In this document: in pieces, positions 20,173-54,924 of the stretch
Layout of the letters: every line of letters starts with the position of its first letter
Position numbering within the stretch: the first letter of the stretch is position 1
NCBI GenBank assembly: GCA_005893225.1
Contig: VBOT01000071.1
Coordinates: 1 to 56,348 of the forward strand
DNA from: Candidatus Eiseniibacteriota bacterium
Lineage (GTDB): Bacteria; Eisenbacteria; RBG-16-71-46
Direction of reading: 5' to 3'
Length of the DNA: 56,348 nt
Made by a program: the position numbers and the translations under genes
Notes under the pieces: generated by a model
The model's input: only the letters and a program-made list of their open reading frames with translations
Databases searched by the model: none
Told to the model about the DNA's origin: nothing

Positions 20173-21623
20173 GTTCGCGTCCCTCCCACGGTGATGGCGG
20201 TGAACCGCACCGTCGGCTGCCCGACCCCGACCGGCTTCCACTGCCCGTCCTTGCCGCACGATCCGGTGGTGCCGTCGATCTCGAGGTCGCTGGCGACCGC
20301 GTCGATCTTCAGCATCGCGTCGTTGCCGTTGCCGGTGAGAGTGGCGTTGCGCACCGGGTAGGTGAGCTTGCCGTTCTCGATCTGGTGCGCCTCGGTCACC
20401 TGGAACGAGAAGTTGCCGTCGGCGGGGTTGACCGAGCCGCCGCCCAGGTTCTTGCAGTAGAGACCGCGCTTCACCGAGGCGATCAGATCCTCGGGGGCTT
20501 GAGGGCCGGCCTCGATGTAGGTGTTGGTCATGCGGCACAGCGGGTAGTCCCGGTACGAGCTCCTCCGGCCGTTCCCGGTCGGCCGCTCGCCGGTGAGCCG
20601 GGCGTTGAGCAGGTCCCAGAGATAGCCGACCAGCAGCCCGTCCTCGACCAGGACCGTGCGCTGCGCCGGCGTCCCCTCGTCGTCGACCCGGAACGAGCCG
20701 CGGCTGAACGGCACGACGCCGCTGTCGACGATGGTCACCCCCCTGGCCGCCACCTGCTGGCCGCGCTGGGTGGCGCGGATCGAGGTGCGCTTGCGGATCG
20801 TGTCGCCTTCCATGCTGTGGCCGAAGCACTCGTGCACCATCACGCCGCCCCAGCCGGAGGCGACCACCACCGGATAGGCTCCGGCTTCCGGCTCGCGCGC
20901 CGCGAGCAGGAGCACCGCGGTCTCGGCCGCCTCGCGGGCGATGGTCTCGGGCGATCGATCGCGCTCGAAGTAGGAGGCCTCCACCGCCCCTCCGCCGGCC
21001 GCGAAGCCCTGCTGCCGCTCCCCGTCGGCCAGCGCCAGCGCGACCACGGTGAGACGCGCGAGGTACTGGCGGTCCGCAGCCCACAGGCCGTCGCTGTTCG
21101 CCACCACGAACTGCTTGGTGGAGTCGGAGAGCGCCGCGCTGACCTCGTGCACGCGCGGGTCGTGCGAGCGTGCGGCGTCGTTGGCGCGCTGGAGGAGCGC
21201 GATCTTGCGCGACTCGTCGAGCGCCGCCGGGGCCGGCTCGCTCAGCTGGAACGGCGCCGGGGCATCGACCACCTTGAACGACTTCGGGCGGCCGTCGGCC
21301 GCGCCGGCGCGCGCGATCCGGGCGGCCACGCGCGCGGCCTCGCGCAGGTCCTCCGGCTCGAAACCGTCGGCGTAGGCGTAGCCCGTCTGCTCGCCGCTCA
21401 CGGCGCGCACGCCCACTCCCCGGAGGATCGAGCGCTCGCAGCGCTTGAGCCGGTTCTCCTCGAGCGAGAAGCCGGTGTGAACCGTGTGCTCTCCGTAGAC
21501 CTCGGCGAACTCGGCGCCGTGAGCCCGTGCGAGCGCGATGAGCTCCTCGAGGAGCTCGAACGGCAGCAGCGCGGCGAGCTCCGAGGCAGGGTCGGACACG
21601 GTGGACTGCGGAGGGTTGGCCAT
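20169..21623 (-). CDS. tldD: TldD metalloprotease, catalytic subunit
   Basis: This 484-residue protein carries the zinc motif HECFGH (about residues 262-267), followed by the family segment SMEGDTIRKRTS, and ends with the TldD C-terminal strands (SDLEIDGTTGSCGKDGQ). TldD supplies the metal site of the TldD/TldE peptidase, which accepts extended peptides inside a closed chamber. The start is ATG 21623. No obvious modified-peptide precursor gene is nearby, so a housekeeping role is as likely as RiPP maturation. Confidence 0.95.
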   Translation of the reverse strand: MANPPQSTVSDPASELAALLPFELLEELIALARAHGAEFAEVYGEHTVHTGFSLEENRLKRCERSILRGVGVRAVSGEQTGYAYADGFEPEDLREAARVAARIARAGAADGRPKSFKVVDAPAPFQLSEPAPAALDESRKIALLQRANDAARSHDPRVHEVSAALSDSTKQFVVANSDGLWAADRQYLARLTVVALALADGERQQGFAAGGGAVEASYFERDRSPETIAREAAETAVLLLAAREPEAGAYPVVVASGWGGVMVHECFGHSMEGDTIRKRTSIRATQRGQQVAARGVTIVDSGVVPFSRGSFRVDDEGTPAQRTVLVEDGLLVGYLWDLLNARLTGERPTGNGRRSSYRDYPLCRMTNTYIEAGPQAPEDLIASVKRGLYCKNLGGGSVNPADGNFSFQVTEAHQIENGKLTYPVRNATLTGNGNDAMLKIDAVASDLEIDGTTGSCGKDGQWKPVGVGQPTVRFTAITVGGTRT

Positions 21624-21946
21624 GGAAGGTCCTGGGTTAGGGATCGTGCGGGAACGGGGCAGTCTAGGGACAGACCGCGCCGCGGCGCAAACCCTTCATC
21701 CCGACTTCATCCCGAGCGCCACCCGAGGTCCCTCGTGGCCCGCGCCCACCGCAACGCTCATGCGCGACCCGGCATGGCGGGCCGCTGCGTCTTGCAATCG
21801 GCGCGCGGTCGGCGGGCGCGGTCGAGCGCCAATCTTCATGGCGTCGCAAAGGATTGGGAATTGCACTTGACCCTCCGGCGGACCGCTCGTGATACTCGTT
21901 GTTTCTTGCTCCGCCCCTTCCCCATTCCGGAGAGGCCCACACACTC
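21624..21946. other. Divergent intergenic region of 323 bases
   Basis: This gap separates tldD (leftward) from the secreted two-repeat protein (rightward). Only the rightward promoter listed separately is convincing; no small gene is supported. Confidence 0.6.
21867..21896 (+). promoter_or_regulatory. Promoter of the secreted two-repeat protein gene
   Basis: TTGACC (21867-21872) and GATACT (21891-21896) are separated by 18 bases, giving a sigma70-type promoter about 50 bases before ATG 21947. Confidence 0.5.
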
Positions 21947-23185
21947 ATGGTGCGAACACGCTGGATGGTATCGGTGATGCTCGGAGCGCTGATCCTCGTC
22001 GCGCTCGAGGCAGGCGCCGCCAAGACGCCGGACAAGCGACCCCCGGCGGAATCCGCGTCCACCGCCCGGGCCCAGTCCAGGAACCTGCTCGTGAATCCGG
22101 GCTTCGAGGACGGCTCGAAGGGAAGCTCGTGGATGCCGGCGGGGTGGGACACCTCGCGGGCCAACCTCCCGACCGTGCTGTTCACGCGCGACCAGTTCAA
22201 CGTGCACGGTGGCAAGTACGCCGTCAGCGTGGCGAGCGCCAGCGGTCTCTATTACATGGCCCACAACTGGAGCCAGACGGTGCTGGTCGGCCCGGAGGCG
22301 TGGAACAAGGACGCGGTGTTCTCGGTCTGGACCCGCAGCAGCGGAGTGGAGGGACGCGCTTACGTCGTGCTCCAGGCCTACCGCGACACGATCAGCAAGA
22401 TGGCGAAGGTATGGGGGATGGACCGGCTCGACGCCGGTCAGAAGCTGGGCATCAACGCGATCGACGACCCGCTGGTCGATCTGGGATGGAAGCGGGCGTT
22501 CTTCCCCGAGCCGGAGACCGACTGGGTGCGGCGCGAAGTGCGAGTGTTCGTGCCCCCGAGCGTCAGCGTCCTGTTCGTCCGGTGCGGCGTCATCGGCACC
22601 GGGCAGCTCGTGATCGACGATGCGTCCCTGACCCTCGAGCCCGCGCAGCCGGCGCCCGAGATCGCCCCTCATGCCAACCTGCTCGTGGACCCGGGCTTCG
22701 AGGGGGACGACGGCGCCTGGGAGTACTCCCTGCCTCCCTATCCGACCATGAAGGCGGAGCGCGACACCACGATCGCCCACTCGGGGAAGGCGTCCCTGAA
22801 CCTCACCTGCGGAGGGGACGTGGGGATCATCCAGGCACAGAGCGGCGTCTGCCAGGTGGTCTGCAACCGCAATCTCGGGGGCAAGCACATCAAGCTCTCG
22901 GGATTCATGAAGACCGACACGCTGCAGGGGAGCGCCTACGTCAAGGTCTACTGCCACTCGCTGAAAGGAGTGGGCCAGATGGGCTCGGTCGCACCGCTCT
23001 CGGGCACGACGCCCTGGAGTCCGATGACCGCCGAGATGGACCTGCCGGCGGACACCTACGAGGTGTGGGTGTGGTTCGCGTTCAACGGGCCGGCCGTCGG
23101 GCGCGTGCAGGTCGACGATGCGAGCCTGGAGGTGGTCGGGCCCGCCCAGGGAGCTACGCCGGGGACGGGAAAGAGCGGGCCCTAG
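21947..23185 (+). CDS. Secreted protein with two carbohydrate-binding-like beta-sandwich repeats
   Basis: This 412-residue protein starts at ATG 21947, with GGAGAGG at 21929-21935. A signal peptide covers about residues 1-25. Two repeats start alike (NLLVNPGFEDGS and NLLVDPGFEGDDG) and both close with a strand ending VIDDASL or VQVDDASL. This is the layout of CBM4/9-like jelly-roll modules that bind sugars. No catalytic domain is attached, so it is probably a binding or surface protein. It is possibly transcribed alone from the promoter at 21867. Confidence 0.75.
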   Translation: MVRTRWMVSVMLGALILVALEAGAAKTPDKRPPAESASTARAQSRNLLVNPGFEDGSKGSSWMPAGWDTSRANLPTVLFTRDQFNVHGGKYAVSVASASGLYYMAHNWSQTVLVGPEAWNKDAVFSVWTRSSGVEGRAYVVLQAYRDTISKMAKVWGMDRLDAGQKLGINAIDDPLVDLGWKRAFFPEPETDWVRREVRVFVPPSVSVLFVRCGVIGTGQLVIDDASLTLEPAQPAPEIAPHANLLVDPGFEGDDGAWEYSLPPYPTMKAERDTTIAHSGKASLNLTCGGDVGIIQAQSGVCQVVCNRNLGGKHIKLSGFMKTDTLQGSAYVKVYCHSLKGVGQMGSVAPLSGTTPWSPMTAEMDLPADTYEVWVWFAFNGPAVGRVQVDDASLEVVGPAQGATPGTGKSGP

Positions 23186-48712: not shown

Positions 48713-50968
48713 ATGCTCGAGAGAATCGGTCGATATCGCGTCACCCGGAAGCTCGGCGAGGGCGGAATGGGCGTCGTCTATGCGGCTCACGACGAGCGCC
48801 TGGAGCGCCCGGTGGCGCTCAAGATGATTCGCGAGGCCTCCACGGACGACAAGGCCCGCGAGCGCCTGTGGCGCGAGGCCAGGGCCGCCGCGAGTGTGAG
48901 CCACCCCAACATCTGCCAGCTCTTCGAGATCGCCGAGGAAGACGGGGAGCTGTTCATCGCCATGGAGCTGCTCGAGGGGGAGTCCCTGGCGGAGCGGCTC
49001 GGGCGCGGGCCTCTCAAGGTGGCGGAGGCCGCGCAGACGGCGCTCGCGATGCTCGCGGCGCTCGAGGCGCTGCACCGCCGCGAGCTGGTGCATCGAGACC
49101 TCAAACCCTCGAACGTGTTCCTGACCCCGCACGGGATCAAGCTCCTCGACTTCGGACTGGCGCGACCGTTTCAGCAGGAGGCTGGCGACGCCTCGCTCAC
49201 CCAGACCGGGATCCTGATCGGAACCCCCCGCTACCTGGCTCCCGAGCAGATCCTTGGCCGCCCGGTGGACGAGCGCGGCGACCTGTTCGCGGCGGGCGCG
49301 ATCCTCTTCGAGATGCTGAGCGGCAGGCCTGCGTTCGACGGGACCGCGGTCATGGAGGTGCTGAGCGCCGTGCTCCACGAGCAGCCGGCGGTGCTGGGCG
49401 GCTCGGCGGCGATCGCGGCGCTCGACCGCGTGATCCACCGGGCGCTGGCGAAGCAGCCCGAGCGTCGCTACGCGAGCGCCGCCGCCATGGCCGACGACCT
49501 GCGTCGGACCATGGCGCTGGGTGACACGGCGGAGACGCCCCGGGCGCATCCCATCACGCGCCTGATGGTGCTGCCGCTTCGCATCCTGCGCTCCGACCCG
49601 GAGACCGACTTCCTCGCCTATAGCCTGCCGGACGCCGTCACGAGCTCACTCTCGGGGCTGGACTCGCTGATCGTCCGGTCGAGCATGACCGCGGCGGCCT
49701 TCGCGAGCGACACCCAGGACCTCGAGTCGCTGGCCGGCAAGGCCGACGTGGACGCGGTCCTCACCGGCACGCTGCTCCGCGCCGGGGATCAGCTCCGCGT
49801 CAACACCCAGCTCGCCGAGGTCCCGGGCGGCGCCGTGCTGTGGTCGCAGACCTCGCAGGTGCCGCTCGGCGACGTGTTCAAGCTCCAGGACGAGCTCACG
49901 CGGCGCATCGTGGAGTCGCTGGCGCTGCCGCTCAGCGCCCGCGATCGCGGCGTGCTCGGGCGCGACGTGCCCGCCACCGCCAAGGCCTATGAGTGCTACC
50001 TGCGCGCGAACCAGCTCGGCACCGAGGCGCGCCACTGGACAGTGGCGCGCGATCTCTACCTCCAGTGCCTGGCCGAGGATCCCGGCTACGCCCCCGCCTG
50101 GGCGCGGCTCGGCCGGATCCATCGCGTGATCGGAACCTACCTCGACGCGGACGGCCGGGAGAGCAAGGCCAAGGCCGAAGAGGCCTTCAAGCGCGCGCTC
50201 GAGCTGAATCCCGAGCTCTCGGTGGCCCACAACCTGTACACCTACCTCGAGGTGGAAATGGGCCGGGCACAGCCCGCCGTGCTCCGCCTGCTGGAGCGCG
50301 CCAAGCGGCGGACCGCCGACGCGGAGCTATTCGCCGGCCTGGTCCAGGCGTGCCGCTACGCCGGACTTCTCGAGGCCTCGGTGGCCGCCTACGAGACCGC
50401 GGTGCGGGTGGAACCGGGCATCCGGACCAGCGTGGCTCACTCGTACTTCATGCTCGGCCAGTATCAGCGCGCGATCGAGACCGAGGTGGCCGATCCGCCC
50501 GAGGTGGCCGGCCTGGCGCTCGTCATGCTGGGGCGCGAGGCGGAGGCCCTCGAGCGGCTGCGCTCCACCGAGCAGTCGCTCCTGCCCCGGTCCGGGGCGC
50601 TCCACGACGCGCTCATCGCGCGCCGGACCCTGCTCGAGGGGAAACGGTCGGAGTGTCTGATCGCCACCCACCGGCTGCTCGAGAAGAGCACGCTCCGGGA
50701 TCCCTGCGGGCTCTTCTACATGGGCCGGCACCTGGTGTACCTCGGCGACCTGGATCGCGGACTCGAGCTGCTCCTCGCCTCGATCGAAGGAGGATTCTGC
50801 TGCCACTCGTTCGCGACCCGCGATCCGTGGCTCGACCCGATCCGCGCGCGGCCGGAGTTCCGCGATTACCTCTCCAGGTCCGCGGCCCGCTACGGCGAGG
50901 CGGTGAAGGCGTTCCTCGAAGCCGGAGGGGATCGGGTGCTGGGGGTGAGCCCGGCGGTCACGGCTTAG
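48713..50968 (+). CDS. Ser/Thr protein kinase with FlgO/TolB-like and TPR regions
   Basis: This 751-residue protein starts at ATG 48713, where the kinase domain begins (RYRVTRKLGEGGMGVVY). Catalytic residues are present: Lys in VALKM, HRDLKPSN, DFGLA and GTPRYLAPEQ. A middle region (about residues 290-430) resembles the FlgO/TolB-N-like module often fused to such kinases (DAVTSSLSGLDSLIVRSS, then DAVLTGTLLRAGDQLRV). The last 300 or so residues carry TPR-like helices. No membrane segment is clear. It follows phoU and a candidate Pho box, so it might be phosphate-linked; otherwise its targets are unknown. GTG 48563 upstream has no ribosome site. Confidence 0.9.
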   Translation: MLERIGRYRVTRKLGEGGMGVVYAAHDERLERPVALKMIREASTDDKARERLWREARAAASVSHPNICQLFEIAEEDGELFIAMELLEGESLAERLGRGPLKVAEAAQTALAMLAALEALHRRELVHRDLKPSNVFLTPHGIKLLDFGLARPFQQEAGDASLTQTGILIGTPRYLAPEQILGRPVDERGDLFAAGAILFEMLSGRPAFDGTAVMEVLSAVLHEQPAVLGGSAAIAALDRVIHRALAKQPERRYASAAAMADDLRRTMALGDTAETPRAHPITRLMVLPLRILRSDPETDFLAYSLPDAVTSSLSGLDSLIVRSSMTAAAFASDTQDLESLAGKADVDAVLTGTLLRAGDQLRVNTQLAEVPGGAVLWSQTSQVPLGDVFKLQDELTRRIVESLALPLSARDRGVLGRDVPATAKAYECYLRANQLGTEARHWTVARDLYLQCLAEDPGYAPAWARLGRIHRVIGTYLDADGRESKAKAEEAFKRALELNPELSVAHNLYTYLEVEMGRAQPAVLRLLERAKRRTADAELFAGLVQACRYAGLLEASVAAYETAVRVEPGIRTSVAHSYFMLGQYQRAIETEVADPPEVAGLALVMLGREAEALERLRSTEQSLLPRSGALHDALIARRTLLEGKRSECLIATHRLLEKSTLRDPCGLFYMGRHLVYLGDLDRGLELLLASIEGGFCCHSFATRDPWLDPIRARPEFRDYLSRSAARYGEAVKAFLEAGGDRVLGVSPAVTA

Positions 50969-51105
50969 TGGCGCCTCGGATTGCGGCGGTTGCCCTGCTC
51001 TCCGACGTCGTGCGGGTTGTCGCTGGCGAAGCAGTCCTCCCGGACGTCAAGTACAGCGCGCTCGGTGTGGGCCTTGTCGCGGGTGTGGCCGCTTCACGGC
51101 GTAGC

Positions 51106-51180
51106 TCACTTGAGGATAATCAACTTCTTCTTTCGAGCTGACCGACCATCCTGGACTCGGCAGAAATAAAGCTCTTGCGG
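51106..51180 (-). pseudogene. Fragment of a FlgD-like C-terminal tail
   Basis: On the minus strand the 75 bases read QELYFCRVQDGRSARKKKLI and end ILK-stop. This is the last strand pair of a FlgD-like tail, usually SG.YF.RL..G....KK..L.. The start, the WDGRD part and the rest of the protein are missing. It lies in a 229-base gap after the kinase gene and is out of frame with the neighbouring VOC fragment, so it is likely the remains of a deleted secreted-protein gene. Confidence 0.5.
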
Positions 51181-51197: not shown

Positions 51198-51639
51198 TCA
51201 GGGTCTGATCGGGGCGCCGGCCGGCTTGGCTCGCGAGAACGGTTTCGACCGGCCCGACCCCTTCCCGGTGCGCTTAGACGCTTTCCGGATTTCCTCCGCC
51301 AGCCCGACGATGATGCCCTCCGGGCCGCGTATGTAGGCTAGCCGATACGTGTCCTCGTACTGCATTTCGCCGATGAGCTCAGCCCCGCGGGCGCGCATGC
51401 GCGCAACGACATCGTCGATGTCGTCGACGGCGAACATGACGCGACGGAGGCCCAGCGCGTTCACCGGCGCGTCCACGGGCCCAAACCTGATCGCGTTGGG
51501 CGTGTGGAACTTGTCCAGCTCGATGCCACCATGACCATCGGGCGGCCGCATCATCGCGAGGGTGGCCCGGACATCTTTGAGCCCGATCAGGCTGCCGACC
51601 AAAGGCCCTTCGACTGTCGTCTCGCCTTCGAGCTTGAGG
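51198..51639 (-). pseudogene. VOC/glyoxalase-family gene truncated by an insertion sequence
   Basis: The frame reads VOC-like segments: LEGETTVEG before the first possible start, then LVGSLIGLKDVRATLAMM, FAVDDIDDVVARMRARGAELIGEM and YIRGPEGIIVGLAEE. The usual first strand and metal ligand (about 20-25 residues) are missing, because the frame runs into the insertion sequence end at 51640. A TTG at 51602 could start a 134-residue remnant, but nothing supports a working enzyme. A basic tail of about 25 residues follows the domain. Confidence 0.65.
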
Positions 51640-51664
51640 CCTAGCCTTGAATGAGCAAAAAGTC
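51640..51664 (+). repeat. Left terminal inverted repeat of the insertion sequence
   Basis: It starts CCTAGCCT, then TGAGCA at position 13 and an A-run, and reaches into the transposase stop codon (51663-51665). Confidence 0.7.
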
Positions 51665-53045
51665 AGGCTGCACGAACCCCTCCCAGACGGTCCGCGATCC
51701 GAAGGAACAGCCGCTTGGTCGGTTCGTTGCGAGCCATGCGCAGGACGGTAGCGCCGGCCGGCCGGACCAGCCGTCCGGCGCGATGAAAGAGCTCGAAGCG
51801 CAGGGTGTGAATGCTCTTCAACACATGGAGCGCGGTGCGTTTCGCCGAGCGACGGCGCGGCGGGGCTCCGGTTTCGATCTGGAAGTTGGTGATCAGGTTG
51901 TGCGCCAGAGCGACGAACTGCTGCCAGGCGCTATTGGCTCCATAGTGACGGGTGGGGATGGTGCCGAAGGCCAGGCCGCCCTTGAGCTCGCCGATCACCT
52001 TCTCGTGAGCGCCGCGGCCACACATGAAGTGCCAGAGCTTGGGACCGCTCAGGCCCAGATTGGTGGCGACCGCGGAGTATTCGTAATAGCCGTCGTCAGG
52101 ATCGAACAGATCGAGCTGGAAGTTCCTGGCGGAGCGATGATGGACCACCTTGCGATAGATCACGATGCGCATCTCGAGCTTCCAGGGCGTCAGCGGCAAG
52201 TGCACCTCGAAGCAGCCGACCTCGCCGTTGACCCGCTGCCATTTCCGGCACCTGCGGATGTGCTGCTGGAGGTCGAGCCACTGCCAGAACGGCACCTTGA
52301 TGGCGAACCCTGCTCCACGGGCGATCAGCAGCCGCAGCACGCTCTGCTTGAAGAAATCGCCATCCATGCGGAACCGCAGCCGGACGGCGCGACCCAGGGT
52401 GTCCGCGACCTGAGCGAACAGTTCGCGCAGGAAGGGGATCGAGGCCTTGCCATCGTTGATGTTCCCGGAGCGGTTCTTGACTCGCAGCAGGTGTCCGGTC
52501 TCGGCCACATAGGCCGTGATGGGGTAGTAACTCGGGACCTTGCGATGGTGCGGATTGAACCCCCGGAACGCCCGCTCCACGGTCATCCCGGTGGACACCA
52601 CCGTCCCGTCGACATCCACGGTCAGAGTGCGCAGCCCGGTCTGCAGGTGGACGGCGCGTGCCACCACCGCGGCGTTGAGCGCGCACAGGCGCTCGATCCA
52701 CTGCCCGGTGAACTGCTGCAGCCAGCGGCTCAGGGTGAAGCGGCCGGGCAGCTGAGCCAATCCGCAGAACCGATGGATGAGCGGATCGCCCACCACATGC
52801 GTGACGTGCTGCAGCCGTCGCCCGCCGGCGATCAACAACCCCAGCATCACGCGCACCATCGCGGTCGTGGCGAAATCGCCGGCCAGTCCCGAGAGATGCT
52901 GACGGATGAGCCCATTGAGATCGATCCTCTGAAAGTACCGGATCACCAACTCGAGTCCGGCATAGGACGTCAGTCCCGACTCGGAGAACTCGACCCGCAA
53001 ATCGCGGTTGACCCGACGGCCCAAATCGGCTTTCCTTCGCCTCAT
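51663..53045 (-). CDS. IS1380-family DDE transposase
   Basis: This 460-residue protein starts at ATG 53045. The DDE motifs are the first Asp in LTVDVDGTVVSTG, the second Asp in RFRMDGDFF, and the Glu in GAHEKVIGELKGGLAFG, where the Y/E region is typical of IS1380-type transposases. The frame is uninterrupted, so it may still be active. Nothing in the element other than this gene is coding. Confidence 0.9.
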   Translation of the reverse strand: MRRRKADLGRRVNRDLRVEFSESGLTSYAGLELVIRYFQRIDLNGLIRQHLSGLAGDFATTAMVRVMLGLLIAGGRRLQHVTHVVGDPLIHRFCGLAQLPGRFTLSRWLQQFTGQWIERLCALNAAVVARAVHLQTGLRTLTVDVDGTVVSTGMTVERAFRGFNPHHRKVPSYYPITAYVAETGHLLRVKNRSGNINDGKASIPFLRELFAQVADTLGRAVRLRFRMDGDFFKQSVLRLLIARGAGFAIKVPFWQWLDLQQHIRRCRKWQRVNGEVGCFEVHLPLTPWKLEMRIVIYRKVVHHRSARNFQLDLFDPDDGYYEYSAVATNLGLSGPKLWHFMCGRGAHEKVIGELKGGLAFGTIPTRHYGANSAWQQFVALAHNLITNFQIETGAPPRRRSAKRTALHVLKSIHTLRFELFHRAGRLVRPAGATVLRMARNEPTKRLFLRIADRLGGVRAA

Positions 53046-53123
53046 CGTTCATGGCCTTTCGTTGGGGTGAGAGGAACTGCTCGCAACAGCCCTTTCAAAC
53101 CACAACGAGAGGCCTTTTTTCAA

Positions 53124-53390
53124 TCACGAAGTTCGATGCGCTTCGATTTTCTGCTCAACTGAGGCTAGGAATCGGTCCAACTCAAGAGCTTCCAGACTCG
53201 GCAATTCCTCCCGCTGCTCGCCCGGCGTGTCGTGACGCAGCTCAGCCTCTCGGACCAATTCGCGGCCCTCGTCTGTCAAGGTGACGATCTCGCCCGTGTC
53301 TGGGTCGAGATACGATTGCCAGTTTTGATTCGGAAGGTCTATCGCCTCGATCACGTCACGGAGCCGGACCCTCGCCGTCATAGGATTCAT
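53124..53390 (-). pseudogene. UPF0158-like small protein gene truncated by the insertion sequence
   Basis: The frame starts at ATG 53390, with GGAG nine bases before. It reads VRLRDVIEAIDLPNQNW, then SYLDPDTGEIVTLTDE, the N-terminal part of UPF0158-like proteins. Family members are usually about twice as long. Here the last 14 or so residues (after ELDRF) are encoded by the end of the insertion sequence, so the natural C terminus is lost. The protein would be 88 residues. The function of the family is not known. Confidence 0.5.
53145..53169 (-). repeat. Right terminal inverted repeat of the insertion sequence
   Basis: Read leftward it starts CCTAGCCT and keeps TGAGCA at position 13 and AAA at positions 20-22, matching 19 of 25 positions of the left end. 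Confidence 0.7.
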
Positions 53391-53443: not shown

Positions 53444-53677
53444 TCAGCTCGCAGCCCGAAATGCCCTGCTGGCCTCCCGCGGGACATCGATCGCGACGAA
53501 TAGGCGGTCGGGATACAGGTAGGCCTCCCCCGATTCGTCGATGACTCGGATTAGCCCCCGAGCTACGGCCTTCGGATCTGCCAGTGTCCGGTAGACTCGC
53601 CGGACAATGAGCGAGGCACGGAAGCCTCGGTTGGAAACGCAGAGAACGTATGGTGCGCGGTGATTGCGTCGCGGCAT
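53444..53677 (-). CDS. Small conserved protein of unknown function
   Basis: This 77-residue protein starts at ATG 53677. Its sequence (YVLCVSNRGFRASLIVRRVY, then GLIRVIDESGEAYLYP) matches a recurring pattern of short beta-rich proteins I have seen described only as hypothetical. It follows the 78-residue gene by two bases (TGA-CC-ATG) and is surely cotranscribed with it. Such pairs often sit near mobile elements, and a regulatory or toxin-antitoxin-like role is possible but unproven. Confidence 0.65.
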   Translation of the reverse strand: MPRRNHRAPYVLCVSNRGFRASLIVRRVYRTLADPKAVARGLIRVIDESGEAYLYPDRLFVAIDVPREASRAFRAAS

Positions 53678-53679
53678 GG

Positions 53680-53916
53680 TCAGTCGTCCAGGATGCGCTT
53701 GATCTTGAACTCCTTGCGGCCCACTCCGGAAGCCTCGTACCAGTGTACCTCCGCGGTGAAGGCTTTGCCCGGGCCCACACGAACTTGGGCTATCCCCTTG
53801 CGCTTGCGCCAGCGGCCCGGGCCATAAACCCGTTCAAGTCTGGCCAGCTCCCGAATCCTCCTGCCTACCGCGATCGTCTCGACCTGGGTGATCTCACTCA
53901 GGATCGTGACCGGCAC
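53680..53916 (-). CDS. Small conserved protein, basic, partner of the 77-residue gene
   Basis: This 78-residue protein starts at GTG 53916, with GGAGG nine bases before. It has a helical N terminus (RRIRELARLERVYG), a basic middle (GRWRKRKGIAQVRVG) and an end rich in Lys and aromatic residues (VHWYEASGVGRKEFKIKRIL). Size and charge suit a nucleic-acid-binding protein, but no motif proves it. It is the first gene of a three-gene leftward unit that ends in the truncated UPF0158-like frame. Confidence 0.65.
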   Translation of the reverse strand: MPVTILSEITQVETIAVGRRIRELARLERVYGPGRWRKRKGIAQVRVGPGKAFTAEVHWYEASGVGRKEFKIKRILDD

Positions 53917-54363
53917 CGGCTCTTACCTCCGGGGGGGGATCCCCAGCGAACTCAAACGTACACCAACCCGTCCGTCCCGGGCCCTGCGGGACATCCTACA
54001 CGACTCGATCCGAGGGACTCCTCCCCGCAGAACGCGTCGGGATGCGGCCTTGCCCCACCCCCGATGCGACCCCGATTTGGAGTCCTCGCCGCCGGCCGAG
54101 CTCCCCAATCAGCGCCCCGAGGCGCCAGATTCACCAAACCCCTGCGAAGGATCCCCCAAACGCCCATTGCAGGGTCGAATTGCGGCGGTTGCGGAAGAAC
54201 CGAAACCTGTCAAGCGCGCGAACCCCTCCGGCGGCAAGTCATTCTCACCACGTCTTGAGGGATCTGCCCCATTCCGCCCGGGCCAGCCGGCACGTCAGAT
54301 GCCCTAGCGAATGGGTGAGGTCAGGAAGGTTCAAGGCGCAGGAAGAACGATAGGAGAAAGACG
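53917..54363. other. Divergent intergenic region of 447 bases
   Basis: No gene is supported. A G8 run lies at 53931-53938. AGGAGA before ATG 54364 is the ribosome site of the next gene. I found no convincing promoter for either direction. Confidence 0.5.
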
Positions 54364-54924
54364 ATGCGGATGATCCAGAGCAGTGCGCGGCGCTCAGGCG
54401 CCTCGGTTCTCGTCCTTGGGGTTCTGGCGGCCTTCACCAGCGGATGCGGGATCGCTCCTCCCACGAGCCCGGTTTCGCTCGAGTCGGGTGGACGGGTGGT
54501 CAAGCCGGCGGCGTCGGCCGACACGATGACGGGCACCTGGACCACGCTCGCCAGCGTGTGGGTCAACAAGGGCGAGGTCAAGACCGTGAGCGGCGGGCGG
54601 TATACGATCCAGTTCGTGCGCGGAGCGCTCAGCCAGGGTGCTCAGGTTACGATCGCGGAGCAGGACCCGTCGGCCTGCGGCGTCATGATCGGGCCGAGTG
54701 GGACGAAGCTGAGCAAGGCCTCCACGCTGACCATCAGCTACGCCGGGTCGACGCAGGATCTGGCGGGCCCGGCCCTTCAGCTCTACCACCTCAACGACGC
54801 GACCAACATGTGGGAGCCAGTTGCTGCTACTAACGACATCCTGGGCCACAAGGTCACTGCCAACGTGACGATTCTGGGTGGCTACACGCTCAGCGCGCTA
54901 CCTCCGGGCAAGGCCGGCTGGTGA
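54364..54924 (+). CDS. Probable lipoprotein with a ZU5-like beta-sandwich domain
   Basis: This 186-residue protein starts at ATG 54364 behind AGGAGA. A signal peptide ends in a lipobox-like FTSGC with the lipidated Cys near residue 28. The mature part reads YTIQFVRGALSQGAQVTIAE, then IGPSGTKLSKASTLTISY and LQLYHLNDATNMWEPV, which is the ZU5-like pattern of a beta sandwich in surface proteins. Function is unknown. It converges with a metzincin-like lipoprotein gene. Confidence 0.7.
   Translation: MRMIQSSARRSGASVLVLGVLAAFTSGCGIAPPTSPVSLESGGRVVKPAASADTMTGTWTTLASVWVNKGEVKTVSGGRYTIQFVRGALSQGAQVTIAEQDPSACGVMIGPSGTKLSKASTLTISYAGSTQDLAGPALQLYHLNDATNMWEPVAATNDILGHKVTANVTILGGYTLSALPPGKAGW

Follow-up and report, generated by a model that had tools for sequence, protein, structure and literature searches.

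An IS1380-family insertion sequence flanked by CTAG next to a shortened VOC gene in a draft genome of Candidatus Eiseniibacteriota

Introduction

The eukaryotic transposon piggyBac has the tetranucleotide TTAA as its target. The bacterial IS1380 family is distantly related to it, and both are described as sharing 4-bp target duplications and 5'-CC..GG-3' tips (PMC10045372). For IS1247, itself a member of the IS1380 family, a duplication of 5 bp is given (PMC3281130, Table 2), which speaks against a uniform duplication length in the family.

In this study, we describe an IS1380-family element which stands between a VOC gene lacking its beginning and a small open frame, we determine its ends base by base, and we compare its target sites with those of related elements. 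A preliminary description of the same DNA had explained the arrangement by a deletion next to the element. We come back to this explanation with different evidence.

Sequence material

The window, by which we mean the whole stretch of 56,348 nucleotides that was analysed, corresponds to contig C183. The draft genome to which it belongs comprises 219 contigs and is 87.85% complete, so that pieces missing from it may simply be unassembled. The comparison set consisted of 47 genomes of the phylum including the genome under study, none of the others belonging to the same genus. Element ends were gathered from 17 loci, namely the window, contig C213 of the same genome, which was found by DNA search, and 15 loci from protein searches. 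In the counts of ends, duplicate records were entered once (L105 = L042, L112 = L043, L113 = L038). One end each was obtained from C213, C97, L032, L035 and L039, and the loci L033, L034, L045, L046 and L047, which yielded no end, were left out.

Results

The preliminary description placed an IS1380-type element at 51640-53169. The element is indeed present, even though each of its ends had been set 5 bp too far out (Table 1). Its transposase matches NF033539 (E 2.7e-66; score 223.9 bits, cut-off 180) as well as PF13701 (DDE_Tnp_1_4, E 3e-36), and the element has the 5'-CC..GG-3' tips and the inverted repeats of the family. The terminal inverted repeats are imperfect; read inward, the left one is CCTTGAATGAGCA and the right one CCTCAGTTGAGCA, and they agree at 9 of 13 positions. 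The nearest transposase relatives found are 56-59% identical, and none were detected in IMG/VR or in plasmids. We regard it as a new representative of the known IS1380 family.

Table 1. Coordinates of the element, its target copies and the adjoining genes in the window
Feature	Position	Strand	Basis
VOC (glyoxalase-fold) gene, 3' part	51198..51644	-	PF00903; alignment with the proteins of G002 and G004
CTAG, left 4-bp target copy	51641..51644	.	re-reading of the end; C213 has CTAA in the same place
IS1380-family insertion sequence	51645..53164	-	1520 bp, 5'-CC...GG-3' tips; ends re-read base by base
IS1380 transposase, 460 aa	51663..53045	-	open frame with zero internal stops; NF033539, PF13701
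CTAG, right 4-bp target copy	53165..53168	.	re-reading of the end
Small gene, 5' part, 73 codons up to the element, into which the frame stays open	53165..53390	-	ORF; no family match at E<=10

Concerning the exact ends, a DNA search of the genome returned three matches to the element, none of them at a contig end. One lies on contig C213 (21044-21176, corresponding to L003 1501-1633) and is a 133-bp remnant of the right end with 99% identity. From CCTCAG inward it is identical to the right end in the window until the fragment breaks off; its outer tetranucleotide is CTAA as compared to CTAG in the window, and the sequence beyond is unrelated. In the relative G057, four ends with identical inner 24 bases carry the outer tetranucleotides TTAG, CTAG, CTAG and TTAG; at the other end type, TTAG, TTAG and CTAA were read from three ends. 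Because the outer tetranucleotides of C213 and G057 vary on constant inner ends, we regard them as sequence of the insertion site and the element as extending from 51645 to 53164. CTAG as a part of the inverted repeat was rejected on the same grounds, since ends with the same inner bases vary in G057 and C213 departs from the window from the outer tetranucleotide outward.

The C213 remnant is cut just past the transposase start; next to it comes the gene of another transposase (21418-22525), 24-30% identical to the transposase of the window. Contig C11 starts with a fragment that belongs to another element, with 47% identity over 55 residues. The left end of the element occurs once in the genome. 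The search for other copies, proposed earlier as a check on duplications, has led to one partial copy, with a single end and the tetranucleotide CTAA.

The preliminary description reported that the element lacks a target duplication, as the flanks TGAGG and AATCG differ. These pentanucleotides were read one base beyond CTAG on either side, and CTAG flanks both ends. The pentanucleotides at the two ends are unequal, CCTAG on the left and CTAGG on the right. A matching duplication, which had been named as an observation that would speak against a deletion, is therefore formally present, though it is weak evidence in this element group. We no longer use the missing duplication as evidence for a deletion, its premise having come from misplaced element ends.

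A 4-bp duplication is shown once in the group, by the relative G026, where the element likewise lies between two CTAGs. Without the element and with one CTAG kept, the sequence reads ...HLSSYGGTTPRVHSSGGK... and contains a continuous IS110 transposase frame, in which Transposase_20 (IS110 group) extends across the junction (residues 196-261 to profile positions 2-67 of 87, E 1.1e-15); with both CTAGs or none kept, the frame shifts. Direct matches that are not palindromic were seen in G398 (TTAG/TTAG) and on contig C34 of G090 (CTAA/CTAA; L121 1318-1508). The G090 element measures about 190 bp, too little to accommodate a transposase, and retains both inverted repeats; it is a miniature non-autonomous copy.

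At the 17 loci, which were gathered without a pattern search, 28 of 29 ends adjoin the tetranucleotide YTAR (C/T-T-A-A/G), the single exception being the left end in G021 with TCAA. In a larger set of 54 ends, CTAA was counted 13 times, TTAG 13, CTAG 12 and TTAA 10, which gives YTAR at 48 of 54 ends, a figure biased at three of the four bases because the pattern that supplied part of the set contained TAR (one mismatch allowed). The first base, free in the pattern, is a pyrimidine (C or T) at 51 of the 54 ends. A pattern scan of IMG/VR yielded one end, with ATAA. Related IS1380-type ends from several phyla (L103-L137 and related loci) adjoin YTAR too and are often unequal within one copy; a related element with long flanks (L052, G021:C45) has the tetranucleotides TCAA and CTAG.

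Fourteen copies are complete, the one in the window included. Their two tetranucleotides are equal in five and unequal in nine, with 3.5 equal copies expected for independent ends (P 0.26), and equal tetranucleotides were therefore rejected as proof of simple insertion. Two unrelated YTAR ends match by chance in about a quarter of cases, and in about a third at the frequencies of the window itself, where CTAG accounts for 16 of 32 YTARs. Since YTAR is nearly fixed and nine of the 14 complete copies are unequal, the CTAG pair, compatible with a simple insertion without proving it, is weak evidence for one. Within 650 bp of a contig end lie eight of the nine unequal copies but also three of the five equal ones, so that this distance is not a clean cause of unequal ends. 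Misassembly may explain part of the unequal tetranucleotides without separating equal from unequal copies.

The frame to the left of the element belongs to the VOC superfamily (25.1 bits to PF00903, cut-off 20.6). It starts exactly at CTAG and the element, at the place of residue 26 of the G002 and G004 relatives, and the first 25 residues are absent. They were not found on the other side of the element. Nor was the VOC front found elsewhere in the incomplete genome, where the G004 protein as query returned the copy in the window (E 9e-36) along with three matches of weak significance (E 0.03-0.43).

The VOC fragment lies on the 3' side of the transposase, and ISPme1 of the IS1380 family has been reported to mobilise DNA adjacent to its 3' end (PMC9330008). 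Movement of the element together with the VOC fragment as one transposable module would, however, require the rest of the small right-hand gene beyond the VOC fragment. Among the frames listed there, a long one on the plus strand ends at 50968, and none to the left was recognised as continuing the small frame. We consider such a module very improbable.

On the right, the small frame begins at 53390, reaches the element after 73 codons and is presumably cut by it. The earlier statement that both ends truncate host genes accordingly holds for the left, where VOC loses 25 residues, and as a presumption for the right. The 73-aa fragment had no match in Pfam, PHROGs and NCBIfam at E<=10, no relatives in the 46 other genomes of the phylum at E<=0.001, none in IMG/VR or phages and none in plasmids at E<=0.01; at E<=10 nine plasmid records appeared, all with E 2 or worse. 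A PDB search gave six matches up to E 10, with no stretch passing alone. The best of them (E 4.6e-6) covers residues 24-63 of chain RPB_PLP3_R6, which from its name we take to be a designed repeat protein. The label UPF0158-like could not be confirmed, as PF03682 gave no match at E<=10 to this fragment, which is short for the model of 157 positions. PF03682 was likewise silent in 20 genomes of the family, which shows no absence because it gave no signal in the 14 control genomes either.

A relative with the same two gene ends and no element had been suggested as a further check. Among the 47 genomes, VOC relatives were found in two others, and a relative of the right-hand frame in none other than the genome under study. 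The two small genes to the right of the 73-codon frame are conserved in G016 (78% DNA identity over 53444-53942), where they are followed by a putative ABC-transporter ATPase frame, read by eye. In eight other relatives of the element, no named gene continuing across it was recognised by eye.

The nearby FlgD-like tail, formerly brought forward as a sign of a larger loss, exists as a short minus-strand frame at 51106-51180. Its translation ends ...PQELYFCRVQDGRSARKKKLIILK* and presumably resembles a FlgD-type C-terminal tail; no domain precedes this frame with the ending ...CRVQDGRSARKKKLIILK*. A Pfam scan of the plus-strand frame 50981-51169, which overlaps the region, gave no match. Because the tail lies downstream of the VOC stop codon, it says nothing about the junctions of the element.

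Base composition changes to the left of the element. G+C is 0.71-0.72 at 49000-51000 and 0.62-0.66 from 51000 to the contig end (0.645 at the drop), and the low-G+C stretch, with its onset at 51000, continues to the right of the element. The tetranucleotide composition of the right arm is unusual, just two of 97 left-arm segments being equally far from the rest. Within this arm, 88 bases at 54512-54599, inside a predicted secreted or lipoprotein-like frame, are 89% identical to C196:23238-23325 of the same genome.

Discussion

The two gene parts meeting at the element seem foreign to each other. The VOC gene has lost its first 25 codons and they are absent across the element, which favours a deletion, or else a recombination, directly at the edge of the element. 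With modest confidence we propose that a deletion after insertion, beside the element or between copies of it, joined the VOC part to the small gene. We read the element as belonging to an IS1380 group whose insertions target YTAR and duplicate 4 bp. It would have inserted at a CTAG within the VOC gene, and the DNA from its right end to a second YTAR in the small right-hand gene would then have been lost, either by recombination between two element copies or because one end, in an aberrant transposition, made use of a new YTAR in cis. Such an event would leave one intact element separating the front of one gene from the back of another, and the second CTAG would stem from the other site and resemble the first through base composition. 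These steps are inferred from what the window shows: the element with its ends, a CTAG at either side and the 5' loss of VOC at the element. The deletion put forward in the preliminary description therefore remains the best reading on account of the lost VOC front, even though its argument from a missing duplication has fallen.

Several observations count for this deletion. VOC similarity stops exactly at CTAG, neither the VOC front nor a second left end was found in the genome, and the 133-bp remnant on C213 documents a second site of the element. Moreover, no other contig carries element DNA at its end, and G+C is low on both sides of the element, as expected of one locus. Against it count the unusual tetranucleotide make-up of the right arm, the draft state of the genome, and the fact that the undeleted state was not seen in a comparison set without a genome of the same genus.

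Against a deletion counts also the CTAG on both sides, as this is what a simple insertion would leave. The element would in that case have entered, with a 4-bp duplication, a frame in which both gene parts were already fused. If one CTAG is kept, the frames join in phase to an open frame of 355 codons; joining in phase is nevertheless given by chance in one of three cases, and the upstream part aligns weakly with the VOC front, with a gap in one of the two relatives. Because the VOC part starts exactly at the element, insertion into a pre-fused frame needs a coincidence, and we think it improbable.

The composition of the right arm would also fit an assembly misjoin, in which a short-read assembler passed through the repeated element and connected the left flank of one copy with the right flank of another, be it a copy within this genome or in that of a sister strain. 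The assembly is a metagenome-like draft, a second, partial copy is present on C213, and the nearness of unequal complete copies in relatives to contig ends, shared by most of the equal ones, might point the same way. Yet no other contig ends in the element at the DNA level, its left end occurs once, the displaced VOC front was not found and the low-G+C stretch spans both sides. A misjoin is a possible but rather unlikely source of the junction. The locus is ordinary biology.

In eight of the nine unequal copies, the differences are confined to C/T and A/G exchanges flanking an invariant TA. As a speculative and quite doubtful idea, this IS1380 group might insert at degenerate YTAR, a counterpart of the TTAA of piggyBac, and unequal tetranucleotides might be mosaics of donor and target. 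On excision, the element would keep the 4-base overhangs of its former site; after it has entered a new one, mismatches repaired either way would give duplications that mix donor and target. A YTAR target rule for this group was not found in the open literature searched, and may be known. The target tetranucleotide resembles a part of the inverted repeat in this group, so that missing duplications called by eye can result from a slip of a few bases.

The group differs from piggyBac in that the TTAA of the latter is found here next to three further tetranucleotides, with CTAA, TTAG, CTAG and TTAA at 13, 13, 12 and 10 of the 54 ends in the set that was partly found by pattern. The TA-centred 4-bp target is alike. 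CC..GG tips and 4-bp duplications are shared by piggyBac and the IS1380 family (PMC10045372). The 5'-CC..GG-3' tips of the element agree with this statement, and its CTAG pair would do so if read as a 4-bp duplication. In contrast, IS1247 has a listed duplication of 5 bp (PMC3281130), and the pentanucleotides CCTAG and CTAGG of the window do not match each other. Should finished genomes bear out both the YTAR rule and the unequal ends, bacterial IS1380 elements and piggyBac targeting would be linked in a testable way.
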